Positions 7,005-23,740 of a stretch of 25,339 nt of DNA are shown here, one piece after another. The DNA is from a virus: positions 1-25,339 of the IMG/VR virus record IMGVR_UViG_3300036985_002253; one strand, written 5' to 3'. Under the pieces are notes generated by a model that was not told the DNA's origin, searched no databases, and saw only the letters and a program-made list of their open reading frames with translations. Every line of letters begins with the position of its first letter. Within the stretch, counting starts at the first letter, position 1. The translations under genes and the position numbers were made by a program.

Positions 7005-7828
7005 GTATATTAAAATTTACAGCAGAAGATCATAAATACCGTAGTGAAGATGATATGGATTGGTTAAGTGTCACTAGCTTTATTGGAAACTTTAAACAAC
7101 CATTTGATGCAGATAAGATAGCTACTAAATGTGCTAAAGCAAAGAAGAGTAAGTGGTATGGAATGACACCTACAGAAATTAAACAAGCTTGGAAATCAGA
7201 AGCTAATAGAGCCACCACTCTTGGTACATGGTATCATAACCAACGTGAAAAAGATATTTGTGAGATAAATAATATGGAAAGACATGGTAAGACAATACCA
7301 ATTTTCAAACCACAAGAAGTTAATGGAATAAAATATTCTCCAAATCAAAAACTTGAAGAAGGTGTCTATCCAGAACACATGGTGTATTTAAAAAGTGCAG
7401 GAGTGTGTGGTCAATCAGATCTTGTAGAAGTGATAGATGGCAAAGTACATATAACCGATTATAAAACTAATAAAGAAATTAAAGTTGAAGGATTTACAAA
7501 CTGGGAAGGAGTTACACAAAAAATGTCAAAACCTGTGGGTCATTTGGATGATTGTCATCTTAATCATTATGCTCTCCAGCTTAGTATGTATTTGTATATT
7601 ATTCTTAAACATAATCCAAAACTTACTCCTGGCATTCTCACAATCCATCACATATTATTTGAAGAAGCAGGAAGAGATCAATTTGATAATCCTATTTCTG
7701 CTATTGACTCTCATGGTAATCCTATTGTAACAGATATTATTCAATACGATTTACCCTATCTAAAAAAAGAAGTTATTAATTTAATACATTGGTTAGAAGA
7801 TAATAAAAAAACTTTAAAACCTCATTAA
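7001..7828 (+). CDS. RecB/Cas4-type PD-(D/E)XK nuclease (275 aa)
   Basis: All motifs of the RecB-like exonuclease branch are present in order: G75-TWY-H79-NQR-E83, then GVCGQSD140-LV, then ITD153-Y-K155-TN (the D-x-K catalytic pair), and Q193-LSM-Y197. There are no Cys residues in the arrangement of the Cas4/AddB iron-sulphur cluster. It would cut or trim DNA ends. In phages such enzymes act in recombination, genome processing or host DNA degradation. It sits in the operon just ahead of the terminase region, overlapping the previous gene by ATGA. Confidence 0.85.
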   Translation: MSILKFTAEDHKYRSEDDMDWLSVTSFIGNFKQPFDADKIATKCAKAKKSKWYGMTPTEIKQAWKSEANRATTLGTWYHNQREKDICEINNMERHGKTIPIFKPQEVNGIKYSPNQKLEEGVYPEHMVYLKSAGVCGQSDLVEVIDGKVHITDYKTNKEIKVEGFTNWEGVTQKMSKPVGHLDDCHLNHYALQLSMYLYIILKHNPKLTPGILTIHHILFEEAGRDQFDNPISAIDSHGNPIVTDIIQYDLPYLKKEVINLIHWLEDNKKTLKPH

Positions 7829-7829
7829 T

Positions 7830-8069
7830 ATGGAAAATAAAGAAGAAGAAGTAATACTTACATTATCAGAATTATTAGATCAATACGAATCTGGAGAATT
7901 AATTCCTGAAAATAATGCTAGAAAAGTATATTTAAGTGAAGAACAAAAAGCTTATAAAAGAATAGCATGGATTCATGATCATGAGTTAAGAGGTCAAGCT
8001 CTTCTTAGAAGAATGGGAACAGCTGCAGGAAGAGATTTATTAAGACAACCCCCCTCAAACAATTTATAA
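7830..8069 (+). CDS. Hypothetical 79-aa protein
   Basis: A short, charged, mainly helical protein (EEEVILTLSELLDQYESGEL... KAYKRIAWIHDHELRGQALLRRMG). Its length and position upstream of terminase would fit a small DNA-packaging accessory, but there is no helix-turn-helix signature. It overlaps the next start by one base. Confidence 0.6.
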   Translation: MENKEEEVILTLSELLDQYESGELIPENNARKVYLSEEQKAYKRIAWIHDHELRGQALLRRMGTAAGRDLLRQPPSNNL

Positions 8070-8584
8070 TGGTAAGACTATTTGATGTACAAAGTGGTAA
8101 AGTGATTCCTAGTGAACATTGTTATACACTAAAATTTCTTAAAGATATAATGGATGAATATCCTGAAGAGTATTTACAGATATATACATATCTATTTTAT
8201 ATGACTTGTCCTAATCCAGATTTTAATCCTTTCTTTGATGCACCAGAAGAAGATAAAGAAGCAATAATATTACGTGAATTAAAAGTGGATTTTTCACTTG
8301 ATGATGAATTAATAATTAGTGCATTAGCTAAATGTAAAAAGTTATATGAAACTCCTACATACAGAGCTTATCAGGGTATTAAAATATTCTTAGATAACAT
8401 GGCTATGAGTATGGCAACAGAAACTCTCACCTTTGGTAGAGATGGATCTAGTCCTGCTCTTCTTAGAATGGCAGAGAAGTATGATGCTGTTAGACAATCA
8501 TTTAAAGGAGTGTATAAAGATTTAATGGAAGAACAACAGTCGTCTGTAAGAGGGGGACAAAATTTGGCATATGACGATGTTTAA
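8069..8584 (+). CDS. Hypothetical 171-aa protein, possible small terminase (weak)
   Basis: Helical protein of unknown family. The C-terminal half (FLDNMAMSMATETLTFGRDG... RQSFKGVYKDLMEEQQSS) looks like an amphipathic oligomerisation region. It is separated from the large terminase only by the homing endonuclease, the Acb2-like gene and an 84-aa gene, the usual neighbourhood of TerS. That is positional inference only. Its last codons (QNLAYDDV) are repeated at the end of the downstream endonuclease gene (QNLAYDQ), indicating that the endonuclease inserted at this gene's 3' end. Confidence 0.6.
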   Translation: MVRLFDVQSGKVIPSEHCYTLKFLKDIMDEYPEEYLQIYTYLFYMTCPNPDFNPFFDAPEEDKEAIILRELKVDFSLDDELIISALAKCKKLYETPTYRAYQGIKIFLDNMAMSMATETLTFGRDGSSPALLRMAEKYDAVRQSFKGVYKDLMEEQQSSVRGGQNLAYDDV

Positions 8585-9287
8585 TTATGAATTATAAAAA
8601 ATTATATGATCAACTTGTAAGTTCTCGTAAACTTTTAAATCGTAAAAAAGGATTGGAATTTTATTATGAAGCTCACCATATAATACCTGTATGTTTTGGT
8701 GGAATAGGTGATCGTAGAAATATTAAACATGATAATATAGTTTTATTAACTCCTAAAGAACATTATATAGCTCATTTATTATTAGTATCAATTTATCCAA
8801 AATCATCTTGTATGATTAAAGCTCTTTGGAGTATGTGTAATACAGGAAATAATAGATACATCACATCTGCAAAATCTTTTGGTAGAATTAGAAATGAATA
8901 TATAAAAAATGTAAAAGGAATGAATGGAACTTTTTATGGAAAAAAACATACTGTTGAAAGTTTAATTAAAATATCTGAGGCTTCTAAAAATAGAAAAGCT
9001 AATCTTGGTAATAAACATACAGAACAAACAAAAAATAAAATATCAAAAGCTAGAAAAGGTAAAATATTTATTACAGAAGAAACAAAGAAAAAGATTAGCA
9101 AACGTATAAGTGGAGGTAATCATTATAATGCAATTCCAATAATGTGTGAAAAAACAGGACAAATATTTGGATCAGGTAAAGAACTATCAAATTTTTTAAA
9201 TATTCCTGCTAGTTCTATAAGAAGATGGTTAAATGGAACAACAACTGCTCCAAAATGGTTTAATTATAAAAGACAAAATTTGGCATA
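8556..9287 (+). repeat. 16-bp direct repeat flanking the homing endonuclease
   Basis: GACAAAATTTGGCATA occurs at 8556-8571, the end of the 171-aa gene, and at 9272-9287, the end of the endonuclease gene, in the same reading frame (QNLAYD). The interval between them is the endonuclease insertion. It is most simply read as a displaced copy of the original 3' end of the invaded gene. Confidence 0.75.
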
Positions 9288-9297
9288 CGATCAATAA
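8587..9297 (+). CDS. HNH homing endonuclease with NUMOD3 repeats (236 aa)
   Basis: An HNH nuclease core occupies about residues 25-66: EAHHIIPVCFGG (catalytic H30-H31), D49-NIVLLTPKEHYIAHLLL (metal-binding H). Three NUMOD3-type DNA-binding repeats follow at about 115-185 (YGKKHTVESLIKIS, GNKHTEQTKNKISKARKGK, ITEETKKKIS). The C-terminal NUMOD1/helix-turn-helix-like domain is CEKTGQIFGSGKELSNFLNI...IRRWLNG. It makes a site-specific break in endonuclease-free alleles, so that repair copies the gene in. The A-rich base composition is higher than in its neighbours. The C-terminus QNLAYDQ duplicates the end of the upstream gene. Confidence 0.9.
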   Translation: MNYKKLYDQLVSSRKLLNRKKGLEFYYEAHHIIPVCFGGIGDRRNIKHDNIVLLTPKEHYIAHLLLVSIYPKSSCMIKALWSMCNTGNNRYITSAKSFGRIRNEYIKNVKGMNGTFYGKKHTVESLIKISEASKNRKANLGNKHTEQTKNKISKARKGKIFITEETKKKISKRISGGNHYNAIPIMCEKTGQIFGSGKELSNFLNIPASSIRRWLNGTTTAPKWFNYKRQNLAYDQ

Positions 9298-9568: not shown

Positions 9569-9823
9569 ATGAACACAGAAGCCTATCAAGATTTAGAAAC
9601 AGCTTATAAAACAAACATGAACTATTTAGAAGACTGGGTATTTCATTATAACATTCATATAGATAAATGGGCAGCTATTCCTAGAGATAATTATCATGAT
9701 TATTGGAATGATTTTTCCAATCCTAATATTATACGTAGTACAAGGATAGAAACACTTTTAGAATTATTATATAAAACTAAAGGAGATGCTTCTCTTATAG
9801 ATGAATTATTAGTCAAATGTTAA
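9569..9823 (+). CDS. Hypothetical 84-aa protein
   Basis: Rich in aromatic residues (Tyr, Trp, His: NYLEDWVFHYNIHIDKWAAI) and acidic, with no known domain. Its stop overlaps the terminase start (the ATG at 9817 lies before the TAA at 9821-9823), so translation is probably coupled to terminase. It may be a packaging accessory factor, judged only by position. Confidence 0.6.
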   Translation: MNTEAYQDLETAYKTNMNYLEDWVFHYNIHIDKWAAIPRDNYHDYWNDFSNPNIIRSTRIETLLELLYKTKGDASLIDELLVKC

Positions 9824-12030
9824 GTAACTATATAGAAATTCCTACATTTGAAAGTAATGTATGGTCCATTACAGTATATAAAACTCGTGAGGACTTTCGT
9901 GACTTTGTACGTTCTATATTTAAAGATGCTGGACCAGATGAAGGATATAATTTCACTGTAAACATTTCTAAACACTTTAATAATCAAGCTCGTAACTTTC
10001 AAAAAAATGGATACTTCTGTCAAGCTCCATTAAAAAGTAAAGACTTTATTGATTATTGGAATGATCAAAAAGAAAAATGTCGTAATGGTGTAATATATAA
10101 AGATGGAGATGGGGTATGGTATATAACCAGGGATTACTACATGTGGTTAAACTTTCTTCCTATTTATGATAAAGAAGAAAAAAGATTTGATTTTGCTAAA
10201 GTGAGAGATGCTCAATATCACATGGCTCTTTATGAATGTCTTGGAGAACTATATTATAAACATCTTCCAATTCTAAAAAAACGTCAGATAGCTTCTTCAT
10301 ATTTCCATATGGCTAAGTTAATCAATGCATATTGGTTTGAACAAGGATCTGTAAATAAAATAGGAGCTAGTCTAAAAGATTATATTTCTGAGAAAGGTTC
10401 TTGGAGAATGCTTAATGAATACAGAAACTTTCTTAATGAACACACTGCATGGTATAGACCTTCTGAACCTGATAAAGTATTCTCATGGCAACAAAGAATT
10501 AAAGTGAGAATAAATAACCGTGACACATATAGAGGTAATAAATCTATCATCACGGGTACTTCATTTGAAAAAGATCCGACAAATGGCGTAGGTGGACCCG
10601 TCACCTATTTCTTTCATGAAGAAGCAGGTATTGCTCCCAAGATGATGCTCACATATGAGTTTATGAGACCTGCTATGCAGTCTGGTATGATTACTACGGG
10701 TACATTCATAGCTGCAGGATCAGTGGGTGATCTTGAACAATGTAATCCATTAAAGGATATGATATTGTATCCTCATAGATATGGGATGTTTGCTGTAACT
10801 ACAAATCTATTGGATGGAAAAGGAACTATAGGAGAAACTGGTTTATTTATTCCAGAGCAATGGAGTATGCCTCCTTACATAGATGAAGCTGGTAATTCTT
10901 TAGTTAAAGAAGCTATAGAAGCTATTATTCAAGAAAGAATACAATGGGAGATAGATCTTTCTCCTGAACAATATCAACTTCGTATTTCTCAGAAACCAAT
11001 GAATATTGAAGAAGCATTTGCTGCTAGAGCAGTGAGTAAGTTTCCTCCACATTTGGTTTCTAAACAAATGCAACGTATTCAAGATAAGACATATCCTGTT
11101 GAGTATCTGGAACTTACAAGAGATGCTGATGGTAAAATTGTAGATAAACCATCTAGAAAAACTCCAATTATGGAGTTTCCTATTTCAAGAAAGTCAGATG
11201 ATAAAGAAGGAGTGATATGTATTTATGAAAGACCTTGTGCAAATCCCACCTTTGGAATGTATTATGCTTCTATAGATCCAGTGAGTGAGGGAAAAACAAC
11301 TACATCAGATTCACTTTGTTCTATATACGTATTAAAGAATGCCGTAGAAGTTATAAAAGACAATGGTAAAGGAGATGTAAAAAGTCATTTTGAACATGAT
11401 AAAATTGTAGCTTCTTGGTGTGGACGATTTGATGATATTACTAAAACACATGAAAGATTAGAAATACTTATAGAGTGGTATAATGCCTGGACACTTGTAG
11501 AAAATAACGTAGCTCTTTTTATACAATACATTATTTCTAAAAGAAAACAAAGGTATTTAGTACCTAAAGATATGATTCTCTTCTTAAAAGATATAGGAGC
11601 TAATCGTAATGTATTCCAGGAATATGGTTGGAAAAACGTTGGCACTCTTTTTAAAGGGAATATTCTATCGTATGGGGTAGAATATCTACAGGAGGAGTTA
11701 GATCATGAAACTCTTCCAGATGGTACAATAGTAAAAACCATATATGGAGTGGAAAGAATACCTGATCCTATGCTTCTAAAAGAGATGCAAATGTACCAGG
11801 ATGGTCTTAACGTGGATAGACTTGTAGCTTTTTGTTCTCTTGTAGCTTTTGCTAAAGTACAACAATCTAATAGAGGAATGACTAAACGTGTGGAAGTTAC
11901 TAATCAATATTTGGATAACTCCCAAAAATTTAGTAAATTAAATTATAGTCCTTTTAGACATATTGGTGCTGGAAGATCAAAAGTTCCAGGAGGAAAACCC
12001 TCACGAAATGCTTTTAAAAATATACGATAA
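9817..12030 (+). CDS. terL: Terminase large subunit (737 aa)
   Basis: This is the packaging motor, with an N-terminal ATPase and a C-terminal nuclease. Visible parts are a Walker A-like region LPILKKRQIASSYF (about 150-163, without the canonical GK[ST]), Walker B VTYFFHEEAG (262-271, with the acidic pair E268-E269), coupling motif TGTF (294-297), and nuclease motif YYASIDPVSEG (first catalytic Asp D487). The protein is long for TerL, as in crAss-like phages. It converts the head-full concatemer into packaged genomes at the portal. It overlaps the preceding gene by 7 bp and is followed by a 39-aa mini-ORF and the portal gene. Confidence 0.9.
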   Translation: MLSNYIEIPTFESNVWSITVYKTREDFRDFVRSIFKDAGPDEGYNFTVNISKHFNNQARNFQKNGYFCQAPLKSKDFIDYWNDQKEKCRNGVIYKDGDGVWYITRDYYMWLNFLPIYDKEEKRFDFAKVRDAQYHMALYECLGELYYKHLPILKKRQIASSYFHMAKLINAYWFEQGSVNKIGASLKDYISEKGSWRMLNEYRNFLNEHTAWYRPSEPDKVFSWQQRIKVRINNRDTYRGNKSIITGTSFEKDPTNGVGGPVTYFFHEEAGIAPKMMLTYEFMRPAMQSGMITTGTFIAAGSVGDLEQCNPLKDMILYPHRYGMFAVTTNLLDGKGTIGETGLFIPEQWSMPPYIDEAGNSLVKEAIEAIIQERIQWEIDLSPEQYQLRISQKPMNIEEAFAARAVSKFPPHLVSKQMQRIQDKTYPVEYLELTRDADGKIVDKPSRKTPIMEFPISRKSDDKEGVICIYERPCANPTFGMYYASIDPVSEGKTTTSDSLCSIYVLKNAVEVIKDNGKGDVKSHFEHDKIVASWCGRFDDITKTHERLEILIEWYNAWTLVENNVALFIQYIISKRKQRYLVPKDMILFLKDIGANRNVFQEYGWKNVGTLFKGNILSYGVEYLQEELDHETLPDGTIVKTIYGVERIPDPMLLKEMQMYQDGLNVDRLVAFCSLVAFAKVQQSNRGMTKRVEVTNQYLDNSQKFSKLNYSPFRHIGAGRSKVPGGKPSRNAFKNIR

Positions 12031-12155: not shown

Positions 12156-14906
12156 ATGCAAATATATAATGCCTTACAATTAAAAGCTGGAGCTAAAGTA
12201 GAGTACAATAAGATGGGTACTCTAATTCAGCCTTTTCAATTTGTACCAGATAGTGAAAAAGATGATCAATGGAGAGCATGGAATCTTGACTGGTTAGAGT
12301 TTCAGGGAATGAAACAACTTAGACGTAATGCAAAACGTTTAATGAAAAATTATAAATTAGCTAAAGGTATAATTGATAAAACAGATTATATTATTGAAGA
12401 AGATAATGAAATGGCTGATTTAGTAGATACACTCACTAAAGAAGATGTATCAGCATTTGAACTTAAATTTTATCCAATTATCCCTAATGTAATCAATGTA
12501 CTTACTAATGAGTTCTCTAAACGTACATCAAGAATTATGTTTAGAGCTGTTGATGACATGTCTTATAATGAGATGTTGGAAGAAAAAAGAGATATGATAG
12601 AACAAACTCTTCTTGCTTCAGCTCAACAAAAGCAACAGAAGATGGTTATGGAAATGGGGTTGGATATGGAAAGTGATGAAGCAAAACAACAACTTGATCC
12701 AGAAACTCTTAAAAGTCTTCCAGAAATAGAATCATTCTTTAAGAAAGATTATCGTTCTATGATAGAAGAATGGGCTAGTCATCAAATGGCTGTAGATGAG
12801 GAAAGATTTAAAATGCAAGAATTAGAAGAAAGAGCATTTAGAGATATGCTCATCACTGATAGAGAGTTCTGGCATTTTAATATGATGGAAGATGATTATG
12901 AATTAGAACTATGGAATCCTCTACTTACCTTCTACCATAAATCTCCTGATGTACGATATGTATCTCAAGGAAACTGGGTGGGTAAACTTGATATGATGTC
13001 TATATCAGATGTTGTAGATAAGTTTGGATGGATGATGACAGAAAAACAATTAGAAGCTTTAGAAGCAATATATCCTGCACGTTCTGCTGGGTATGCTATA
13101 CAAGGTATGCAAAATGATGGATCTTATTATGATCCTACACGATCTCATGAGTGGAATACACAAATGCCTAGTCTGGCTTATAGACAGTTCACTTCCTTAT
13201 ATGATGCAGGATCTCAATTCGGAGATATTGTACAATGGATATTATCAGACTCAGAAGACTTGCAAGACTTTGGTAAAAGTTACATGCTTAGAGTTTCAAC
13301 AATCTATTGGAAATCTCAAAGAAAAATTGGGCATCTAACTAAAATTACAGTGGAAGGAGAAATTATACAAGATATTATTTCTGAAGATTATAAGATTTCT
13401 GATAAACCAGAATATGATACTTCAGTGTATAAACAAAAATCAAAAGATAATTTAGCATTTGGTGAACACATTGATTGGATATGGATTAATGAAGTGTGGG
13501 GTGGTATAAAGATTGGTCCTAACCGTCCAGCTTTTTGGGGTATGAATAATCCAGGTGGTATTAATCCAATATACTTAGGACTTAATGGAGGTAAACCAGG
13601 AAGAGTTCCTTTTCAGTTTAAAGGAGATACTACAGTGTATGGTTGCAAACTTCCTGTAGAGGGTTCTGTATTTGGAGATAGAAATACTAGATCAGTAGCT
13701 TTAGTGGATTTAATGAAACCATTTCAGATAGGTTATAACATTGTTAATAATCAAATTGCTGATATATTAATTGATGAACTTGGTACTGTCATAATGTTAG
13801 ATCAGAATGCTCTTCCTCGTCACTCATTAGGAGAAGATTGGGGTAAGAACAACTTAGCTAAAGCTTATGTAGCAATGAAGAACTTTCAGATGCTTCCTTT
13901 AGACACTAGTATTACCAATACAGAAAATGCTCTTAACTTTCAACATTACCAGGTGCTAAACCTTGAGCAAACAAATCGTTTAATGTCAAGGATACAACTT
14001 GGTACATATTTTAAAAATCAAGCATTTGAAGTAATAGGATTAAATCAACAAAGAATGGGTTTACAAATAGCCCAGGAACAAACTGCTACAGGAGTTGAAC
14101 AAGCTACTAATGCATCTTATGCTCAAACAGAACAATACTTTATACAGCATAGTGATAACCTTATGCCTAGGGTTCATCAAATGAGAACTGATTTAGCTCA
14201 ATATTATAATTCTAAAAAGCCTAGTCTTCGTTTACAATATATAACAGGAGCAGATGAAAAAGTTAATTTTCAGATGAATGGTACAGATCTTTTATTAAGA
14301 GATTTGAATATATTCTGTACAACTAAAACTAATTCTCGTGCAATGATGGAGCAACTAAAATCTTTAGCATTAAATAATAATGCTACAGGTGCTTCTATAT
14401 ATGATTTAGGAAGTGTTATAAAATCTGAAAGCATTGCTGAATTAACAGGTGTACTTAAAGCTTCTGAAGAAAAAGTTACACAACAAAGAAAAGAAGATCA
14501 ACAACACGAACAACAAATGCAAGAACAGCAGATTAAAGCTGCTGAACAACAGATTCAAGCTGCTAATCAATTTAAAGCTGAAGAAGCTGCAAAAGATAGA
14601 CAAGCTAGACTTCTTGAAGCTCAGATTAAAGCTGCTGGATATGGATCTGCATCTGATGTTAATCAAAATGAACAATCAGATTATTTAGATGCAATGGATA
14701 ATATTCAAAAGCAACAGAATTATCAAGATACAATGAATTTTAAAAGAGAAGTTGAAGTAAATAAAAATGCTCTTAATCAAGATAAACATAATATTGAAAG
14801 AGAAAAACTTCAAAGTCAACAAAGTATAGCTGAGAAACAATTACAAATTGCTCGTGAAAATAAAAATAAATATGATGTAAAACCAAATTCTAATAAAAAG
14901 AAATAA
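12156..14906 (+). CDS. Portal protein (916 aa)
   Basis: Assigned from position (directly after TerL, before scaffold and capsid), size and architecture. There is a long mixed alpha/beta body (about 1-760) with a wing/stem-like region, including FPIIPNVINVLTNEF..., KTNSRAMMEQLKSLAL. A Gln/Lys-rich coiled coil follows to the end (about 770-916: EEKVTQQRKEDQQHEQQMQ and on). A dodecameric portal at the packaging vertex would dock TerL and the ring/tail proteins. Long portals with a Q-rich tail that reaches into the capsid are known in crAss-like phages. No membrane segment is present. Confidence 0.8.
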   Translation: MQIYNALQLKAGAKVEYNKMGTLIQPFQFVPDSEKDDQWRAWNLDWLEFQGMKQLRRNAKRLMKNYKLAKGIIDKTDYIIEEDNEMADLVDTLTKEDVSAFELKFYPIIPNVINVLTNEFSKRTSRIMFRAVDDMSYNEMLEEKRDMIEQTLLASAQQKQQKMVMEMGLDMESDEAKQQLDPETLKSLPEIESFFKKDYRSMIEEWASHQMAVDEERFKMQELEERAFRDMLITDREFWHFNMMEDDYELELWNPLLTFYHKSPDVRYVSQGNWVGKLDMMSISDVVDKFGWMMTEKQLEALEAIYPARSAGYAIQGMQNDGSYYDPTRSHEWNTQMPSLAYRQFTSLYDAGSQFGDIVQWILSDSEDLQDFGKSYMLRVSTIYWKSQRKIGHLTKITVEGEIIQDIISEDYKISDKPEYDTSVYKQKSKDNLAFGEHIDWIWINEVWGGIKIGPNRPAFWGMNNPGGINPIYLGLNGGKPGRVPFQFKGDTTVYGCKLPVEGSVFGDRNTRSVALVDLMKPFQIGYNIVNNQIADILIDELGTVIMLDQNALPRHSLGEDWGKNNLAKAYVAMKNFQMLPLDTSITNTENALNFQHYQVLNLEQTNRLMSRIQLGTYFKNQAFEVIGLNQQRMGLQIAQEQTATGVEQATNASYAQTEQYFIQHSDNLMPRVHQMRTDLAQYYNSKKPSLRLQYITGADEKVNFQMNGTDLLLRDLNIFCTTKTNSRAMMEQLKSLALNNNATGASIYDLGSVIKSESIAELTGVLKASEEKVTQQRKEDQQHEQQMQEQQIKAAEQQIQAANQFKAEEAAKDRQARLLEAQIKAAGYGSASDVNQNEQSDYLDAMDNIQKQQNYQDTMNFKREVEVNKNALNQDKHNIEREKLQSQQSIAEKQLQIARENKNKYDVKPNSNKKK

Positions 14907-15020: not shown

Positions 15021-16286
15021 ATGACTGATAATCAAAGTAATGTACAAACATCAATAGAAGAAGTTGATATAGATATTGATGGTTTGTTTTCAGGAGCTCC
15101 AGCAGCAAGTAATATTCTTACTCAAAGTGGAGATGCAACAGAAATCAAACCAAATATCTTTAGTAAAAAACAAACTAATTTAGATTTTCTAGATGAGGAT
15201 GATAAAGTTAATACAACTAATACTTTTAATTCAACTACTAATGATGTAGCAGATAAAGGAGAAATCAAAGCTGTATTAGATGAAATATTAGATGAAGGAG
15301 ATATTCCTGAATTTGATGCTAACGAACCTAAAAAAGGAAGACCTAGAACAGAAAAGTCTGGACTAGTTGAGTTTCTAAAGAAAAGAATAGAATCAAATGA
15401 AATGTTTGCATTTGATGACTATGATGAAAAGAAACAATCTTTAGAAGACTATCTAGGAGGACTTGCAGAGAAAGATGTAGAAGAATTATGGCAAGCAAAT
15501 GTTACTAATATTAAACAAGAAGTAGCATCTAAAGCTCCAGCTCAACTTTTTGAAAGTCTTCCAGAAGAACTTCAATATGCTGCTAAATATGTAGCAGATG
15601 GTGGACAAGATTTAAAAAGTTTGTTTCAAGCTTTAGCTCAAGTAGAACAAGTGAGAGCTCTTGATGTTGATAATGAAAATGATCAAGAACAAATTGTTAG
15701 GTCTTATTTACAAGCAAGAGGAGAAGATGAAGCTGATGTTGAAGAAGAAATATCCACTTTAAAAGATTTGAATACTTTAGAAAAGAGAGCTAAACAATAC
15801 AAACCTAAGTTGGATCAAATGCAGGAACAAATTGTTCAACAACATGTTGCAGAACAAGAACAACGTAAACAGCAACAACAACAAGCTGCAGCTGCATATC
15901 AACAAAATGTATTTGAAGCTCTTAGACCTGCTGAAATAAATGGACTTAAGCTTGATAAAAAAACTCAAGCACAATTATATACAGGATTGGTACAACCACA
16001 ATATCCTTCTATATCAGGAAAGCCTACTAATTTACTAGGTCATCTTTTAGAAAGATATCAATTTGTAGAACCAAACTATCCATTAATTGCTGAAGCCCTT
16101 TGGTTACTTTCTAATCCTGAAGAATACCGTGGAAGTTTGAAAAGAGCAGGTGGAAATGAGAAAGTAGAACAAACTGTAAGACAATTAAAAATTGAACAAT
16201 CTCGTAAAACAGTGTCTTCATATGAAGAAGAAGATCAACAAAAATCAAGAAAAATAGCTAAACCTCAAAATATTTTTAAACGATAA
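15021..16286 (+). CDS. Scaffold-like or internal head protein (421 aa)
   Basis: It lies between portal and capsid genes, where scaffold proteins are usual. It is acidic at the N-terminus (SIEEVDIDIDGLF), with a short KKGRPRT segment (104-110, AT-hook-like) and a long Gln/Glu coiled coil (about 260-300, QMQEQIVQQHVAEQEQRKQQ). The C-terminus is basic and ends NIFKR. Such composition is typical of coiled-coil scaffolds that leave before DNA entry. An alternative is an internal cargo protein. It has its own upstream spacer (14907-15020) with a possible promoter and an ACATAAAAAACCAAACAAAT leader. Confidence 0.6.
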   Translation: MTDNQSNVQTSIEEVDIDIDGLFSGAPAASNILTQSGDATEIKPNIFSKKQTNLDFLDEDDKVNTTNTFNSTTNDVADKGEIKAVLDEILDEGDIPEFDANEPKKGRPRTEKSGLVEFLKKRIESNEMFAFDDYDEKKQSLEDYLGGLAEKDVEELWQANVTNIKQEVASKAPAQLFESLPEELQYAAKYVADGGQDLKSLFQALAQVEQVRALDVDNENDQEQIVRSYLQARGEDEADVEEEISTLKDLNTLEKRAKQYKPKLDQMQEQIVQQHVAEQEQRKQQQQQAAAAYQQNVFEALRPAEINGLKLDKKTQAQLYTGLVQPQYPSISGKPTNLLGHLLERYQFVEPNYPLIAEALWLLSNPEEYRGSLKRAGGNEKVEQTVRQLKIEQSRKTVSSYEEEDQQKSRKIAKPQNIFKR

Positions 16287-16317: not shown

Positions 16318-17946
16318 ATGGCAACCCCAGTTTTAAACAATGGTATATTCCTACGTGACAATGTGTATAACACTAGCTCTCACGTAGATTCATATCACCT
16401 TTCTAATCTTCTTAAAGGTGCAGAACCTACTGATTTAGGTCCTGTTGATCTTTGGGCAATGGCACAAAAAGTTGAAATGCCTTTGTATCAAATGTCATCT
16501 TTTGGTGGAAAGAACGTGATATCAGTAGACAATGCTCGTGGTGAGTATAAATGGCAAATTCCTGTAGCTCAAGATCTTCCCTACATTGTAGAGGACATCG
16601 AAACAGGAAATGATTCTAGCCATCCTCTTGGTATTGATGGTCAAACCTTCAAAATCAAAATTAACAAACGTACTTTTGGTCATGGTGATATCATCACTTA
16701 TGATAAGTATAATGGTGTAGAATTGTATATCACTGCAGATGATATCATCCCTTCTGGTGATGGTTTTATTTACACTGTACAGTTAGTTAATAACGATAAT
16801 AATAAATTCTTACAACGTAAGTATATTACTGTAGGAACTAAAGTATTTCGTAAAGGTTCTGCTCGTGGTGAATACGGTGAAAGATTCTCTGATCTTGGTA
16901 ATGTATCAGCTGGATTCCGTGAATTCTACAACTACGTTGGTGGTGCTGAAGCTCACGTACACTATTCTATTTCTAGTCGTGCTGACTTGATGATGAAAGG
17001 TGGAATGAAAGCTGATGGTACAGTTCCTGTAATTGAAATGTGGAGAAACTTCGATAAGAATGTTGATCCTTCAGTTACTAACCTGGAAACTATGGCTGAG
17101 AAAATGGGTAAAGACTATGTAAAGAAAGCCTATGCTAATGGTCAACTTACACGTTCTTTCCTTACTACATTGGAAGCAGCTCATCTAACCAAAATTGCTA
17201 ATGACATTGAGACTTACCTTATGTGGGGTCAAGGTGGTAAAGTTAAGCAAGATGGTCCTGATGATATTCGTTTGTCAGTGGGTCTTTGGAAACAACTTGA
17301 TAACTCTTACAAGAGGATTTACAACAAAGCATCTTTCAACTTGGATTTGTTCAAATCTGAAATTTTCAACTTCTTTAACGGTAAAGTTGAATTTAAAGGA
17401 CCAGATCCTCAACGTGCTCTTATTGTACAAACAGGTATGGGTGGTATGAAACTTGTAAATGAAGCAATTAAGAAAGAAGCAGTTAACTCTGGTCTTGTAT
17501 TGAATGCTCATGAGCTTGGTGCTGTAACTGGTAAAGGTATGGATCTGAATTTTGGATTTGCATACACTAGTTATGTTATTCCATTCTTAGCTAACGTTAA
17601 GTTTGTATTGAATCCAGCTTTTGATAACGTTCATACAAATGATATTGAGAATCCAATTATTGATGGTTTCCCATTAAGTTCATATAATTTCATTATCTTT
17701 GATATCACTGATAACACTAATGACAATATCTTCTTATTGAAATTGTCTTGGGATAATCAATTGAAATGGTTCTATCAAAATGGTACTATGGATTACATGG
17801 GTCGTACTCAAGGATTCCAAAGTTCTGGAAACTTCAATGGTTACCGTGTTTTCATGACACAGACAATGCCAGCAATTTGGGTTAAAGATCCAACTAAGGT
17901 TTTGAAAATTGTTATGAGAAATCCAGTAACAGGTGGATCATTCTAA
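16318..17946 (+). CDS. Major capsid protein (542 aa)
   Basis: It follows the scaffold-like gene, has the expected size, and is Asn/Gly/aromatic-rich with long beta strands (for example FNFFNGKVEFKGPDPQRALIV, FAYTSYVIPFLANVKFVLNPAF), as in large HK97-fold capsids. Codon choice differs from its neighbours: Arg is often CGT instead of AGA, and Asn often AAC. This points to selection for high expression. The leader has AACCCCTTAAATTTAA before the ATG. It is followed by the structured hairpin at 17955-18004. The HK97 fold itself is inferred, not visible. Confidence 0.8.
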   Translation: MATPVLNNGIFLRDNVYNTSSHVDSYHLSNLLKGAEPTDLGPVDLWAMAQKVEMPLYQMSSFGGKNVISVDNARGEYKWQIPVAQDLPYIVEDIETGNDSSHPLGIDGQTFKIKINKRTFGHGDIITYDKYNGVELYITADDIIPSGDGFIYTVQLVNNDNNKFLQRKYITVGTKVFRKGSARGEYGERFSDLGNVSAGFREFYNYVGGAEAHVHYSISSRADLMMKGGMKADGTVPVIEMWRNFDKNVDPSVTNLETMAEKMGKDYVKKAYANGQLTRSFLTTLEAAHLTKIANDIETYLMWGQGGKVKQDGPDDIRLSVGLWKQLDNSYKRIYNKASFNLDLFKSEIFNFFNGKVEFKGPDPQRALIVQTGMGGMKLVNEAIKKEAVNSGLVLNAHELGAVTGKGMDLNFGFAYTSYVIPFLANVKFVLNPAFDNVHTNDIENPIIDGFPLSSYNFIIFDITDNTNDNIFLLKLSWDNQLKWFYQNGTMDYMGRTQGFQSSGNFNGYRVFMTQTMPAIWVKDPTKVLKIVMRNPVTGGSF

Positions 17947-18039: not shown

Positions 18040-18198
18040 ATGGCTGGTAACACAAAAACAAGTAAGTCAACTGCTCCTAGTAAAGCAATTTCTGTAGCTG
18101 GTTCTAAAGGTGTAAAAGTGGGACTTAATCCTAAACCTACTACTCAATCTACTGCCCAATTTAAAAAAGGTGGAATGGTTGGTAAGAAAAAATGTTAA
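18040..18198 (+). CDS. Small Lys-rich protein (52 aa)
   Basis: Starts at ATG 18040 after an AAAATTAAATACA leader and ends at the TAA at 18196-18198. It is low-complexity Ser/Thr/Lys (NTKTSKSTAPSKA) with a basic C-terminus FKKGGMVGKKKC. It sits directly after the capsid gene with no overlap. It could be a minor virion protein or a DNA-condensing peptide. No family is recognised. Confidence 0.55.
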   Translation: MAGNTKTSKSTAPSKAISVAGSKGVKVGLNPKPTTQSTAQFKKGGMVGKKKC

Positions 18199-18243
18199 CC
18201 CCAATATACTTTAATATAGGAGTCATGATCTATGTAAAGTAAC

Positions 18244-18290
18244 TACCTGTTGTATGCAAACTTCAGAGGAATTGCAGCCCTCAACAGGTA
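18244..18290 (+). promoter_or_regulatory. Nested hairpin in a capsid-downstream leader
   Basis: TACCTGTTG (18244-18252) pairs with CAACAGGTA (18282-18290), and inside it TGCAA (18255-18259) pairs with TTGCA (18272-18276). It lies 22 bp before the ATG at 18313. It could be an mRNA processing or attenuation element controlling the next gene. Confidence 0.5.
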
Positions 18291-18312
18291 CAAAAAATAA
18301 AATGTCAAACAA

Positions 18313-18537
18313 ATGAGTGATGATAAAATAGAATGTACAAAAAGTGGTGATACATATCACTTTAAGAAACCAAAAGTGATTAAGAACATTTTTGGTAATA
18401 AGAAGACTATGTACAGTCAAGAAAATTTTACTATGATTCAATTAAACCAAAAGATTAATCTGTTAAAGAAGCAGTTAACTGAATTAACAAATAAAAAAAA
18501 TATGGCTAAAGCATTGGGTAAAATCCCAAAGAAATAG
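18313..18537 (+). CDS. Small basic protein (74 aa)
   Basis: The start follows TAAAATGTCAAACAAATG. A helical segment (MIQLNQKINLLKKQLTELTN) is flanked by Lys-rich ends, and the C-terminus is KALGKIPKK. The earlier in-frame-like ATG at 18301 gives only a short peptide in another frame. It is similar in charge and position to the neighbouring short proteins. Unknown function. Confidence 0.55.
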   Translation: MSDDKIECTKSGDTYHFKKPKVIKNIFGNKKTMYSQENFTMIQLNQKINLLKKQLTELTNKKNMAKALGKIPKK

Positions 18538-18550
18538 CTTGTAAATATTT

Positions 18551-18670
18551 GGGGAGTGATAAGAAAGGTTAAAGTCGCTTTTCTTATTACGGAGCAGAGT
18601 TATTCTATCATAGGATGACTTATTATATGATAGTTTTTGTTCAGCAGGTGTAAGACAGTTGCACTTCCCC
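18551..18670 (+). ncRNA. Structured RNA junction, about 120 nt
   Basis: The closing stem GGGGAGTG (18551-18558) / GCACTTCCCC (18661-18670) has a one-base bulge. Inside are two clear hairpins: ATAAGAAAGG/CTTTTCTTAT (18559-18587, 10 bp with one G-T) and CTATCATA/TATGATAG (18605-18633, 8 bp). A single-stranded region rich in potential tertiary contacts (TTGTTCAGCAGG) follows. This gives a multi-branch junction with no ORF. It may be a free RNA or the 5' leader of the gene at 18720. It belongs to no family I recognise. Confidence 0.55.
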
Positions 18671-18719
18671 TTAACTTTTTAACTTATAAAAATATATTGG
18701 CATTTTAAAATCATAACTT

Positions 18720-18950
18720 ATGGCACTTAAAATTTTTACACGTTTAGGCAAACTAATTAAAGTAAGAAATACTAAAACTAAATCTTTCTCACATGAGAAT
18801 GAATATTATGTTGCAGTGTGGGTGAAGGAAGGTGATGAAGTAAAATGTCTTATGTTCACTGAAGCTGAAGTTGTAAAAGCTCAATTTAGAGGAGAAAAGA
18901 ATGTAGAAGATCAAACTCAAAGAAGTTGGATCTCAAGATTGTTAGATTAA
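18720..18950 (+). CDS. Hypothetical 76-aa protein
   Basis: Basic beta-rich N-terminus (MALKIFTRLGKLIKVRNTK), a charged middle (AVWVKEGDEVKCLMFTEAEV) and a helical end. The leader AACTTATAAAAATATATTGG and following spacer contain an AT-rich promoter-like stretch. The gene is closed by the hairpin at 18960-18976. It is probably a small virion component by position. No family is recognised. Confidence 0.6.
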   Translation: MALKIFTRLGKLIKVRNTKTKSFSHENEYYVAVWVKEGDEVKCLMFTEAEVVKAQFRGEKNVEDQTQRSWISRLLD

Positions 18951-18959
18951 GTATAGTAC

Positions 18960-18976
18960 ATCGGAATAACTCCGAT
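18960..18976 (+). terminator. Short hairpin after the 76-aa gene
   Basis: ATCGGA (18960-18965) pairs with TCCGAT (18971-18976) over ATAAC, followed by TTGTTGATT. A small terminator or partial terminator before the 338-aa gene. Confidence 0.55.
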
Positions 18977-19014
18977 TTGTTGATTATAATTTTACATAAA
19001 AAACCAAAAAACCA

Positions 19015-20031
19015 ATGAGTAGTGTAACTATCGTGGAAAAGTATCCACAAAACAAAAAATCAAATATTACAATTCGTCCATATTTTAATGTTGATGTAGA
19101 TAATATGGGACTTCAAAAATATGGACTTAGTCTTTTTGATGGAGCTTTTCATGAAGAAAGTATAGCTTGTTTAGAAATTAATGGTATTAAAAGATATTTG
19201 ACAGGATTGAATGAATATGCTCCAGAAGTTAAAATGCTTCCTTTTGAAGAACAAGAAGCTAAAATAAAACAAATTCGTATTATTGTATCTCAATTAGAAA
19301 AAGAACTTGCGGCTAATGTAATAGATCCTAATGATGAAATGTTTTGGAACAAAGTAAAACTACTTAAACAAGACAATAGTGATTTTTGGGATAAGATAAA
19401 AATAAGATGTGGTAATGAACCAGTACATCTTGAACCTAATACAGATCCTTATGATCTTATTAGACTTCTTGCACTTGAAGCAGGTGGATTTTCAATAGTA
19501 GCTAAATCTTTAGAAGATGCTCGTAAAATGCCAACTCCTCCAAAATTCTATCTTGATAGAATGGAAGAAAGTGCTTCTCTTAATACAGAAGTTAAAAAAC
19601 TTAGAAATAAAGCCTTGGCTGAACTTCAAAAGTTATTTGATAAGAATCAGAATAAACTATTTTATGTAGCTAAAGTGTTAGATATAAATGGTACTCATTA
19701 TAAGAAGTCTACACCAAATGATATTATTTATGATAACATGGATAAATATATTAATGGTGAATCAGTAGATAAAAATAAAAAGAAAACTGCTGAAAAATTT
19801 TTAGAAGTTTCTAATCTTGATATGGAATCATTAAAGATTAGAGCTATGGTAAAAGAAAGTCATCAATATAAATATATTGCTACTAAAGCTGATGGTTTTA
19901 TTTATCATATGGAATCTACTACAATGATGGGACGTAATCTTACAGATGTTGTAGAGTATTTAAGAAATCCTTTAAATGAGGAAATTCTTGTAAACATCAC
20001 TAAGAAAGTAGAACAACATTGGAATGCTTAA
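19015..20031 (+). CDS. Virion structural candidate (338 aa)
   Basis: Position after the capsid genes suggests a virion role. The middle part is predicted helical and charged (residues about 75-110 and 185-225: EEQEAKIKQIRIIVSQLEKE; KKLRNKALAELQKLF). The N-terminus starts with beta-like VTIVEKYPQNKKSNITIRP. The C-terminal ~60 residues (KYIATKADGFIYHMESTTMMGRN) resemble a compact domain with a strand-loop-strand. No catalytic motif is visible. The leader ACATAAAAAACCAAAAAACC resembles that of the scaffold gene. Confidence 0.55.
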   Translation: MSSVTIVEKYPQNKKSNITIRPYFNVDVDNMGLQKYGLSLFDGAFHEESIACLEINGIKRYLTGLNEYAPEVKMLPFEEQEAKIKQIRIIVSQLEKELAANVIDPNDEMFWNKVKLLKQDNSDFWDKIKIRCGNEPVHLEPNTDPYDLIRLLALEAGGFSIVAKSLEDARKMPTPPKFYLDRMEESASLNTEVKKLRNKALAELQKLFDKNQNKLFYVAKVLDINGTHYKKSTPNDIIYDNMDKYINGESVDKNKKKTAEKFLEVSNLDMESLKIRAMVKESHQYKYIATKADGFIYHMESTTMMGRNLTDVVEYLRNPLNEEILVNITKKVEQHWNA

Positions 20032-20050
20032 TAATTAAAAAATAAAAACC

Positions 20051-20236
20051 ATGGCAACAAAAAGTATAAGTAATACAGATAGACAATGGGAAGTAGAGGA
20101 TGCTTTAAGAACTTTACAAAGAGCTGAAAAAATTAGAAAAGATTCAGCTTTAATGGGAGAAGTTAAAAAATCCGTTGCTAGTCTACAAAAAATGGCATTT
20201 GGTGGTAGTACACCAAAACCTACTAAAAAGAAATAG
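20051..20236 (+). CDS. Small basic helical protein (61 aa)
   Basis: Helical (RQWEVEDALRTLQRAEKIRK) with a Lys-rich C-terminus (STPKPTKKK). It is the second of the two ORFs of this length in the overlapping frame, and the other strand is a shadow. It is followed immediately by the 47-aa gene. Possibly an internal or DNA-binding virion peptide. Confidence 0.55.
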   Translation: MATKSISNTDRQWEVEDALRTLQRAEKIRKDSALMGEVKKSVASLQKMAFGGSTPKPTKKK

Positions 20237-20238
20237 TC

Positions 20239-20382
20239 ATGGCTGAAAAAGATAAAAAATGGATGCAAAAAGCTGTTGATCCAGCTCATAAAGGATATTG
20301 TACTCCAATGACTAAAGCTACATGTACTCCTAAAAGAAAAGCTTTAGCTCAGACTTTTAAAAAAATGGCTAAAAATAAATAA
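20239..20382 (+). CDS. Small Lys/Trp protein (47 aa)
   Basis: Runs from ATG 20239 to the TAA at 20380-20382, directly touching the next gene. The sequence KKWMQKAVDPAHKGYCTPMT continues into KATCTPKRKALAQTFKKMAKNK. The KWxQKA start with a basic C-terminus resembles the small DUF5872-type proteins of large phages and viruses; I recall the layout but cannot confirm homology. Two Cys residues in YCTPMTKATC could be a metal or disulphide pair. Confidence 0.6.
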   Translation: MAEKDKKWMQKAVDPAHKGYCTPMTKATCTPKRKALAQTFKKMAKNK

Positions 20383-21081
20383 ATGAATAACAATCTATTA
20401 CAAATCAAAGTAAAACAAAGACTAAATAAATTAGCTTCTTTGGACTATGATAACATAGAATGTTGGCAAGTAGCTGAAGCTGTAAATAAAGCTCAGATAG
20501 AATGGACCAGGAGACAACTATATGGTATTAATATTCGTAAAGAAGGAGCTGAACAATCTAGTGGTTTAGTAGATGATTTGCAAAGATTAATGATTCATGA
20601 TAGATTAACAATGGTTGATAAAAAACTTTACTATGAAGGTGAACTTCCTAAGAACTATTTACACTATGTAAGAACAGATGTATTTGCTAAACAAGAATGT
20701 TGCCCTGAACGTAGAATGACAGTGTATGAAGTGGAAGAATCAAATATAAGTATTATTCTTTCTAACAATGATAAAAAACCTAATTTTGAATGGGCTGAAA
20801 CAGTATCTACTTTAATGGATAATAAAGTTAGAGTGTATACTAATGATGAATTTCATATTACTGAATGTCATCTAATTTATTTTAGAAAGCCTATTGAAAT
20901 TCAGTTTAAAGGTTGTGTAAATATTTCTACAGGAATACTGTATACATTAGATCAAGAGTGTGAATTTAATGATGATGTAGCTGAAATAATAGTAGATGCA
21001 GCTGTAAGTATATTAGCAGGAGATATTGAGTCTTCAACCCAATATCAAAGAGAACAACAAAATGTACAATCAAATAGTTAA
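20383..21081 (+). CDS. Head-tail adaptor (ring-type) candidate (232 aa)
   Basis: Helical N-terminus (LLQIKVKQRLNKLASLDYDNIECWQVAEAVNKAQIEW) followed by a beta-rich domain (DEFHITECHLIYFRKPIEI). It ends with a helical C-terminus containing IIVDAAVSILAGDIES. This helix-sandwich-helix order and the LIYFRKPIEI strand are similar to gp6-type adaptor proteins and to the first ring protein of crAss-like phages. It would sit between portal and tail. It is inferred from layout. Confidence 0.55.
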   Translation: MNNNLLQIKVKQRLNKLASLDYDNIECWQVAEAVNKAQIEWTRRQLYGINIRKEGAEQSSGLVDDLQRLMIHDRLTMVDKKLYYEGELPKNYLHYVRTDVFAKQECCPERRMTVYEVEESNISIILSNNDKKPNFEWAETVSTLMDNKVRVYTNDEFHITECHLIYFRKPIEIQFKGCVNISTGILYTLDQECEFNDDVAEIIVDAAVSILAGDIESSTQYQREQQNVQSNS

Positions 21082-21083
21082 TC

Positions 21084-21683
21084 ATGAAAACAATACCTAG
21101 ACCAACAGTATTTAGTGTTAAAGGTCCTGATGTAACAACTGGTGCTCCTAAACAAACAGGAATTAAAACAGCACCAACAAAAGGAAAGAATCCTTTGATA
21201 GATGATTCTTGTATTAGCTTTCTTAATTACAGAGTACAACAAGAAGATCTTTCTTCTAGAATTTATTTAGCAATGTCTCTATGGTTAGATAATAATGGAT
21301 ATGTAAATTCTTCTAAACTTTGGAAAAAATACTCAGATGAGGAAAGAGGACATGCTGATATAGCTAGAGAATATCTTTTAAATATGGGAGTTCAACCAGC
21401 AACAGCTGTTTTAGAACAACCAGCAGAAGTTTATAGTGGTCTTCCAGAAATTATTCGTAAATCATTTGATCATGAGATAGATATCACTACTCAATGTAGT
21501 GAGTTAGCTAATCATGCTTTAAAAGATGGAAGTCATATGTTATATGAGTTGGCTCTTCATTATCTCAGAGAACAAAATGAAGAACATGGTAAGATGCAAA
21601 ACTGGGTAGATCAGTTAAATGCATTTGGAGAAGACAAGACTGCTATGAGACTTCTTGACCATGAAATAAAAGATTATTTGTAA
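21084..21683 (+). CDS. Ferritin-like iron-storage protein (199 aa)
   Basis: After a 40-residue N-terminal extension comes a complete four-helix ferritin. The ferroxidase ligands are conserved: E54 and Y61 in QQEDLSSRIYLAMSLWL (helix A), E86-E87-x2-H90 in KYSDEERGHADIAREYL (helix B), E131 in FDHEIDITTQ (helix C), and E163-Q164 in ALHYLREQNEEHGKMQNWV (helix D). It oxidises Fe(II) with oxygen or peroxide and stores Fe(III) in a shell, usually of 24 subunits. It lies inside the head-tail gene run and starts 2 bp after the adaptor candidate. The extension may attach it to the virion. A virion role is inferred. Confidence 0.9.
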   Translation: MKTIPRPTVFSVKGPDVTTGAPKQTGIKTAPTKGKNPLIDDSCISFLNYRVQQEDLSSRIYLAMSLWLDNNGYVNSSKLWKKYSDEERGHADIAREYLLNMGVQPATAVLEQPAEVYSGLPEIIRKSFDHEIDITTQCSELANHALKDGSHMLYELALHYLREQNEEHGKMQNWVDQLNAFGEDKTAMRLLDHEIKDYL

Positions 21684-21734
21684 TGTCAAAAAAAAATTGT
21701 ATTTTATATTTATAAACCCCTTAATTTTTAAATT

Positions 21735-23018
21735 ATGTATTTTAATCACGCTTTTAGGAAGAGCTTTCTTCCTGTAACAAGTCCAGGTGCATTACCTGGT
21801 GATCCAGTACAAATTGTACCAATTGTAGCTGGAACTACTGCAGCTTTGACTGCAGGTCAAATTGGTTTTTATAACGCAAAAACATGGACTGCAATGGCAG
21901 CAGGTACAGCAGCTCCATTTGTAATTGCTCAAGGTTCTTATTTTACTAGTGACAAGATTGGTCCTGTTCACGGTGGATATAAAGAATCAGTAAAATCTAA
22001 AGTAATTAATCCTAAGTACATTAGTAGATTAATGACTGTAGCAGCAGCTAGTCCTTTAAATCAAATTAAAGACATTTGTGTATGTAACCTTGAATGTGGT
22101 AAAACATACAGACTACGTCTTGATTTAAAAGGATCTCCTACTTTACGTTTTTTAAGTCATAACTTATATCGTACTTTAGATGTATTTACAGGATGTTGCA
22201 CAGATGATTGTTCTGCTCAATGTACTGGTGCTATTGTAGATCCTACTATTGCCACAATTGGTTGGGCTAAACAAATTGCCACAAACCCATGGTTACCTGG
22301 TTTTATTCTTCCTACCGTTAATGATTGGGATGGTAATGAAGTTGCTGCTTTAGCTTCTAATTCAGAAGTTGATGTTGCTGCTTTTATTGCTGACTTAGAT
22401 GCTTATAGTTCTGCTACTTCAGGATGGGATGAGTATCTTGTTGATAACCCTACTGGTGCTGCAGAAGTTCAGTCTTGTTTACAACTAGCAGTAGCTTATG
22501 AAGAAACTAAATTTGGTAATTGTACTTTTACTCCTACTGATTTTTATGAACTTCAACCTTTGAAAATCATTGCTTCTTTAGTAGATGAAACTGGTGATCC
22601 TTGTTATCTTCAATGCGTAAGTATTACAGGTACATGGACTAATGGTGTATATACACCTGATGTACAAGAACCTGCACAGGCTTCTGGAGTAGGTGAGACT
22701 ATTCTTCGTGAATTAATTTTAGATGGTCGTTATCTTCAAAATGCTTTTCCTGATAGTTCTCGTGTAGAGAGTTTGAGGATGAGAGAGATTGAAGCTGATC
22801 CAGCTTTAGCTACTGTTAATCGTAATGGTTTGTATGATCAAGTTATGGTTTTACATAGTGTACCTCGTTTTAATAACCCAACTGGTACATTTGATAATGA
22901 TCAATACTTGTTGAAAATTCACGTACCAGTAGGTACTAATATATCAGCACTTACAACCTTTATTCTTGCAGCAGCAACAGCGGCAGGTAATACAAATCTT
23001 GCTGTAGAACCTTATTAA
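21735..23018 (+). CDS. Probable major virion protein (427 aa)
   Basis: A beta-rich, Ala/Thr/Gly-rich protein of unknown family, with two Cys clusters (ICVCNLECGK and GCCTDDCSAQC). It ends in a hydrophobic Ala-rich stretch (TFILAAATAAGN). It has its own AACCCCTTAATTTTTAAATT leader, similar to that of the capsid gene, and its own strong terminator at 23039-23064. This suggests a separate, highly produced transcript such as a tail tube, decoration or major tail protein. CGT codons for Arg are frequent, as in the capsid gene. It is placed among tail-end genes. Confidence 0.6.
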   Translation: MYFNHAFRKSFLPVTSPGALPGDPVQIVPIVAGTTAALTAGQIGFYNAKTWTAMAAGTAAPFVIAQGSYFTSDKIGPVHGGYKESVKSKVINPKYISRLMTVAAASPLNQIKDICVCNLECGKTYRLRLDLKGSPTLRFLSHNLYRTLDVFTGCCTDDCSAQCTGAIVDPTIATIGWAKQIATNPWLPGFILPTVNDWDGNEVAALASNSEVDVAAFIADLDAYSSATSGWDEYLVDNPTGAAEVQSCLQLAVAYEETKFGNCTFTPTDFYELQPLKIIASLVDETGDPCYLQCVSITGTWTNGVYTPDVQEPAQASGVGETILRELILDGRYLQNAFPDSSRVESLRMREIEADPALATVNRNGLYDQVMVLHSVPRFNNPTGTFDNDQYLLKIHVPVGTNISALTTFILAAATAAGNTNLAVEPY

Positions 23019-23152: not shown

Positions 23153-23740
23153 ATGGCTTACAAACATCAATTAAGTTTAGAAGTACCTGATACTAACAAC
23201 TGTAGTGTATTTCGTGTTGTAGATACAAGCATATATGATGAACATGTACCTGTTACATGTCCTAAATTAGAAATCACTGCTCCAGGGTATAATGTACCTA
23301 TTACAATAGATGTTGTACTTTCTGAAGATCCAGTGACACATGCTCCAATTAATTTTAGTTATATTCTTAATGGTTGTACACTTGGTATTCAAACATCAGG
23401 TTGTGGTACAATAAGTGAAAGACTTCCTGATGGTATATATACACTTAGATATTCTGTAAGTCCAAATGATAAAGTGTTTGTGCAATATCATTACTTAAGA
23501 GTGTGTATGACAGTTAATAAATATTACAATGAACTTTGTAAGTTAGAATTAGCTGCATGTGAACCAGCTCCTGATGTAAAAGATGCTTTAGATGAGTTAA
23601 GACTTATCAAATCTTTTATTGATGCTGCTAAGGCTAAAGTGGAAATATGTGATGATTTACAGGAAGGTATGGAACTATTAATCTATGCTCAAAAGAAATT
23701 ACAAAAATATCAAAGTAGCGGTAGTTGTTCAACATGTTAA
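23153..23740 (+). CDS. Tail-associated structural candidate (195 aa)
   Basis: The N-terminal ~115 residues are beta-rich (YKHQLSLEVPDTNNCSVFRV; PDGIYTLRYSVSPNDKVFV). This is followed by a helical hairpin (ALDELRLIKSFIDAAKAKVE...MELLIYAQKKLQ) and a Cys-containing end (GSCSTC). The combination of a beta domain with the PDGIYTLRYSVSPN motif and a helical C-terminus is recurrent in Bacteroidota phages near tail genes, without an assigned function. Confidence 0.55.
   Translation: MAYKHQLSLEVPDTNNCSVFRVVDTSIYDEHVPVTCPKLEITAPGYNVPITIDVVLSEDPVTHAPINFSYILNGCTLGIQTSGCGTISERLPDGIYTLRYSVSPNDKVFVQYHYLRVCMTVNKYYNELCKLELAACEPAPDVKDALDELRLIKSFIDAAKAKVEICDDLQEGMELLIYAQKKLQKYQSSGSCSTC

Follow-up and report, generated by a model that had tools for sequence, protein, structure and literature searches.

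Phage genes for ferritin-like proteins are usually classed as auxiliary metabolic genes. Here we ask what one such gene is doing inside the capsid gene cluster of a phage. The DNA analyzed, hereafter the window, is a stretch of 25,339 nucleotides (IMG/VR virus record IMGVR_UViG_3300036985_002253). It is a fragment of a crAss-like phage, with a terminase large subunit gene at 9817-12030 (+ strand; phrog_6681, E = 4e-62) and a Crassvirus-family major capsid protein encoded at 16318-17946 (+ strand; PF23898, E = 7.8e-31; phrog_11589).

The ORF in question, at 21084-21683 (+ strand), encodes 199 amino acids and starts with an ATG two bases past the stop codon of the upstream gene. Tested against the curated model, it contains a ferritin domain (PF00210, E = 1e-19; 71.3 bits against a cut-off of 24.5). 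A sequence search of the PDB gave 66 matches at E ≤ 1e-3, headed by the Vibrio cholerae ferritin 3qz3 (E = 4.8e-18, residues 39-195 aligned), and the ferritin match extends to the C-terminal end. The ferroxidase ligands named in the first-pass annotation (E54, Y61, E86, E87, H90, E131 and Q164) are all present at those positions, as are the C-site glutamates E163 and E167, equivalent to E126 and E130 of E. coli FtnA, and each ligand pairs with a counterpart in the alignment with the V. cholerae protein. Judged by its sequence, this is an FtnA-type ferritin with a full ferroxidase ligand set, and its family is characteristic of crAss-like phages. The protein has the same domain, A/B ligand set, C-site residues and C-terminal end as FtnA (V. 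cholerae 3qz3, E. coli 1eum), but differs from it in being encoded in a capsid gene cluster and in carrying a tagged N-terminal extension of 38 residues.

All of the relatives that we found are uncultured phages. Searching IMG/VR with the single protein yielded 31 loci, and an alignment query yielded at least 183, of which 80 were kept; tblastn of the ferritin against phage isolates gave no more than two weak matches, both gut fragments at 20-24% identity, and Leptolyngbya phage Lbo-JY46, whose major capsid protein is the closest among isolates, has no ferritin at the equivalent place. Across 66 distinct complete ferritins of related phages, every ligand is invariant except the secondary-site E86 (60 E, 4 G and 2 D). 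None of the 66 has degenerate primary ligands, a count in which E54, Q164 and E167 are partly fixed by the searches, as one pattern includes E54 and another Q164 and E167, while no pattern constrained E87, H90 or E131. The ferritin domain (codons 39-199; 21198-21680, + strand) is under purifying selection, with a core dN/dS of 0.10 in two clades. Ferroxidase catalysis is likely, as had been proposed from the window alone, because no relative found departs from the primary ligands and the core dN/dS is about 0.1. The refutation named in the first-pass annotation, relatives whose ligands have decayed at the same locus, was put to the test in this way, and the outcome favors catalysis.

The first-pass annotation had also suggested checking whether related phages keep the location of the gene, and they do: in 76 loci the ferritin lies immediately 3' of the same upstream gene. 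In 11 others it adjoins the portal gene instead, and in 7 it lies elsewhere, behind the muzzle gene, among giant genes, near fibre and lysis genes, or 5' of the terminase gene. The six tested records with oddly placed ferritins all carry the Crassvirus capsid protein, and searches with the upstream gene and with a Dps alignment gave no matches in records with ferritin elsewhere. In a ferritin-bearing relative, L027, we recognized a muzzle protein (PF25731, E = 1.6e-32); the window ends before that region.

Which genes flank the ferritin? They had been described as adaptor and major virion protein genes, and the upstream half of that description stands, weakly. The upstream gene, c1 (20383-21081, + strand; 232 amino acids), resembles ring protein 3/4 or an adaptor (phrog_29507, E = 6.5e-6). 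Its match to the ring-protein family PF25710 has an E value of 0.045 in the window, under the curated cut-off, and of 2.8e-4 in the best relative, and its match to the ring protein gp34 of 7qoj reaches only 0.11. We tentatively regard c1 as a ring-like or adaptor-like component of the virion. The downstream half needs revision, as the major capsid gene ends at 17946 and the gene that follows the ferritin, c5 (21735-23018, + strand; 427 amino acids), encodes a predicted auxiliary capsid (decoration) protein. A sequence search of c5 against the PDB found no match, and the likeness emerged by fold alone: its AlphaFold2 model, of middling confidence (pLDDT 69.5), matched 7qof_a in Foldseek (E = 5.8e-10), and in VIA-align it scored Z = 15.6, well above unrelated rows, against chain a of the crAss001 icosahedral capsid, with 305 of 333 residues aligned. 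We identify c5 as the auxiliary capsid protein because its predicted fold is that of this chain and because the crAss001 auxiliary capsid protein gp36 is described as ending at residue 333 (PMC10172136). A further conserved gene, c6 (23153-23740, + strand), follows in synteny. In crAss001 a ring gene likewise lies beside the auxiliary capsid gene (gp35-gp36), and the available part of that description mentions neither ferritin nor Dps (PMC10172136). Since gp35 and gp36 are consecutively numbered, no gene is expected between them, so the window ferritin sits where crAss001 should have none.

To describe the contents of this position, we searched with the upstream gene, a query fully independent of the ferritin sequence. 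It returned 80 loci, of which 6 ended too early and 74 were scored. A Dps-like gene occupied the position in 61 of them, a ferritin in 9 (one of these with both) and nothing in 4. The four empty loci (L129, L154, L166 and L173), where the ring-like and auxiliary capsid genes are adjacent, are natural deletions, so the module is not essential. Across 25 large records from both sets, 14 have ferritin without Dps and 11 have Dps without ferritin. Tandem ferritin and Dps pairs also occur, and the exclusion is therefore usual but not absolute. Taken on gene content and order, the position between the ring-like and auxiliary capsid genes is a dedicated slot. Another clade has a second slot, bordered upstream by the portal gene (12156-14906 in the window, + strand; phrog_6547, E = 1.3e-88) and downstream by c7, the gene of the portal-capsid interval (15021-16286, + strand); it holds ferritin alone, Dps alone, both or none.

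The alternative occupant, c19, is absent from the window. It is 137-172 residues long, and its family matches are phrog_858 (E about 1e-21), PF19174 (DUF5856) and, weakly, PF00210; a profile search linked it to HP-NAP (E = 1.5e-7). Its model is a confident four-helix structure (pLDDT 88) whose closest structures are Dps proteins, aligning with MsDps2 over 127 residues (Z = 16.5, r.m.s.d. 2.1), and Foldseek against Dps structures gave a probability of 1.00 with an E value of just 6e-3. Four residues, H38, H50, D65 and E69, are invariant, with the spacing H-x11-H-x14-D-x3-E in 49 of 53 proteins; the other 4 have indels between the ligands, and in one of them, L117, the same residues align. This is the spacing of H51, H63, D78 and E82 in E. 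coli Dps. The slot partner is, on this comparison, a Dps-like mini-ferritin that keeps the Dps ferroxidase ligands. Phage proteins of the same family (phrog_858/DUF5856) with the Dps ligands include rI.-1 of the RB49 group of isolated T4-like phages (H18-H54) and a protein of Methylophilaceae phage P19250A. The slot Dps is about 30 to 35% identical to these and differs from them in adjoining an auxiliary capsid gene and in having a tag in common with the ferritin.

That the ferritin is exchanged with Dps, and that the two share an N-terminal tag, is the main point of this study, and it was absent from the first-pass annotation. A tree of the upstream protein contains at least 9 changes between the ferritin and Dps states, 7 of them forced by well-supported branches. 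The clearest example is one pair of metagenome assemblies, L163 and L159 (the latter being the contig of L033), in which the Dps version comes from one contig. Their upstream proteins are identical, and the DNA on the two sides of the slot agrees to 99.2% (1190 nt) and 98.3% (2203 nt). The slot ORFs share their first 35 nt (11 residues, MAEQPRNLLKR) and then continue as Dps in L163 and as ferritin in L159, with unrelated bodies. The shared tag could persist through recombination that crosses over at the 5' end of the gene.

The N-terminal extension, put at 40 residues in the first-pass annotation, is genuine: in the window protein the ferritin match begins only after residues 1-38, and most relatives have 17-52 residues ahead of the same point, although one has 5. 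Comparison of N-termini divides it into a tag, MKTIPRPTVFSVKGPD (codons 1-16; 21084-21131, + strand), of a type common to the Dps-like slot occupants, and a variable, probably disordered linker rich in K, T, P and G (codons 17-38; 21132-21197, + strand). The tag motif is a hydrophobic residue, any one residue, R and often P, or else L-K-R. Among distinct N-termini, the strict pattern occurs in 39 of 51 slot ferritins and 39 of 46 slot Dps proteins, in 15 of 440 other genes of these loci, in none of 22 bacterial ferritins, and in 0/6 and 1/6 of the family ferritins outside the slot. Because the pattern was composed after the sequences had been viewed, these counts describe likeness and are not an independent test; shuffled slot tags gave about 2.5 and 1.3 matches. 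The tag has a dN/dS of about 0.3. The portal-side slot lacks this tag, and the sole N-terminal likeness there is another short one (MALDIN/MIDIN). We also considered, and rejected, a general capsid-targeting tag of the T4-like type, carried by many cargo proteins of one phage. In the near-complete records G001 and G018 the motif is nearly confined to the slot protein; the few other proteins that match it form no family.

Ferritin and Dps both oxidize and sequester Fe(II), and their cages differ in size and symmetry. Because the iron chemistry is what the two have in common, and cage size and symmetry are not, selection would act on the ability to oxidize Fe(II), with O2 or H2O2, and to sequester it. 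A fixed slot in the capsid cluster that takes either of two iron-oxidizing cages under the same tag, freely exchanged and each with its own ligands intact, argues that the chemistry is selected rather than a particular protein. The place of the gene among capsid genes and the sharing of the tag suggest late production and docking: the protein would be made late, together with the virion proteins, and the tag would tether the cage to the particle or to assembly intermediates. A precedent for such docking by an N-terminal tag comes from the head fibres of crAss001 (gp21 and gp29), whose N-terminal segments are capsid docking devices, with the first 38 and 58 residues seated in a pocket of the major and auxiliary capsid proteins (PMC10172136). 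The benefit would be that phage DNA and proteins are spared some Fenton damage, whether at a late stage of infection or within the particle. We favor, with a probability of roughly 0.6, an exchangeable ferroxidase module that is selected for its chemistry, produced alongside the virion proteins and probably tethered to these by its tag.

A more specific form of this model, to which we give somewhat less than even odds, is that the ferritin or Dps cage stays on the virion, docked to the capsid by the shared tag, as the particle's own defense against iron and peroxide. We infer virion attachment from the gene's position and the tag. If true, the cage would be an enzyme-like shield of a kind seldom met on phage particles, with a bearing on how much iron the phages in water contain, and the tag would offer a ready-made means of attaching protein cages to crAss-like capsids. 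The natural swap pair opens this question to a direct test.

The strongest rival is that the slot protein is free in the cell, where a late-expressed cytoplasmic ferritin or Dps would shield the host cell, as it dies, and the replication of phage DNA from Fenton chemistry; on this view the tag would be a mere remnant, kept by recombination at the conserved 5' end or by translational needs. The Dps and Mn-catalase genes of gut Gratiaviridae and other gut phages have been interpreted in this way, as raising oxidative tolerance (PMC8008677), and so has the Dps-like gene of Lactobacillus phages (PMC6669764). Some family ferritins, moreover, lie outside the capsid cluster and have no tag (L051, L083 and L091). 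However, the tag is conserved as protein across diverged lineages, at the dN/dS given above, and is common to two unrelated proteins, and in the main clade the gene always occupies the same slot among virion genes, whereas the stretch upstream of the ring-like gene varies freely. We therefore hold free detoxification to be unlikely, although it outranks the other alternatives.

The N-terminal tail of E. coli Dps binds DNA. As the slot partner is a Dps homologue and the tails contain K and R, positively charged tails might bind phage DNA, so that the ferritin or Dps would coat or guard it during packaging. Many slot Dps tags, however, contain just one basic residue or two, and what they conserve is a short motif and not charge, which makes this reading improbable. 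Still further down we place an extension of the Ferrojan horse idea, in which a loaded cage on the virion would exploit host iron uptake or deliver iron to the host. It would suit the place among virion genes and the intact iron chemistry, but nothing in our data links the protein to receptors, and Dps, which stores far less iron than ferritin, replaces it freely; we consider it very improbable. The original Ferrojan horse idea of iron in tail proteins, cited in the first-pass annotation, gains no specific support from these data. Finally, the reuse of the ferritin fold for structure alone, as a non-catalytic part of the virion, which the first-pass annotation had listed, has the location in its favor and is hardly credible, given that none of the 66 relatives has degenerate primary ligands and that the ferritin is exchanged with a cage of another symmetry that keeps its own.

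Where did the phage ferritins come from? Together with one flavobacterial subfamily (Winogradskyella, Maribacter, Aureibaculum and others) they form a group with an SH-aLRT of 100, apart from ordinary Bacteroidota ferritins. The subfamily is 41-47% identical to the window protein (one member 40%) and the ordinary ferritins about 25 to 29%, and an ordinary, recently acquired host gene was rejected as the source on the strength of this grouping. In our tree, a quick one with long branches, the flavobacterial sequences (L100-L109) are nested within the phage diversity, and a transfer of ferritin from phage to flavobacteria is possible. In the one neighborhood examined (L100) the flavobacterial gene is chromosomal, and no slot tag was found in the subfamily. 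The portal-side ferritins are scattered among the slot ferritins in the same tree, which indicates that the gene has moved between positions. In L030, a GIY-YIG endonuclease gene (6524-7342 of that locus) lies directly 3' of the ferritin gene, and its protein ends in FESFGTEQITLLHIDEKMGELA, similar to a ferritin C-terminus, as if a ferritin gene had been invaded; no notable nucleotide repeat was found at this site.

Phage Dps genes have been described before and interpreted as oxidative protection (PMC8008677, PMC6669764). The Gratiaviridae Dps and Mn-catalase are likewise phage-borne enzymes of the ferritin superfamily, and the available part of that report describes no ferritin, capsid slot, exchange or tag (PMC8008677). 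A literature search that covered few subscription journals turned up no account of ferritin or Dps from crAss-like phages, and none that describes the shared tag or a slot among capsid genes where ferritin and Dps are exchanged. Within these bounds, what is new here is the dedicated slot, the exchange and the tag.

Several features of the surrounding DNA deserve mention. Just 5' of the auxiliary capsid gene lies an AT-rich element, TATATTTATAAACCC (21705-21719), and a similar one, TATATTTATAACCC, precedes the same gene in L163 and L159. As a candidate late promoter, TATATTTATAAACCC occurs exactly once in the window, a looser pattern does not occur in G001, and a match with up to two mismatches arose in 24 of 100 shuffles; we dropped the idea because the element is not significant against shuffles in the window. 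A sigma-70 promoter scan gave no excess above shuffled sequence. Between the major capsid and ring-like genes (18040-20382), the window encodes small, often lysine-rich proteins that are highly variable across relatives, unlike the fixed ferritin/Dps slot. Upstream of the terminase lie a GNAT acetyltransferase gene (5525-5959; PF00583, E = 7.6e-11) and an HU/IHF-like gene (6311-6715; PF00216, E = 1.6e-3, below the cut-off). The ORF at 8587-9297 contains NUMOD3 and has an HNH-like N-terminus, and is probably a homing endonuclease gene; its 3' end repeats 16 nt from the end of the preceding gene (8069-8584), as if it had been inserted at that gene's 3' end.
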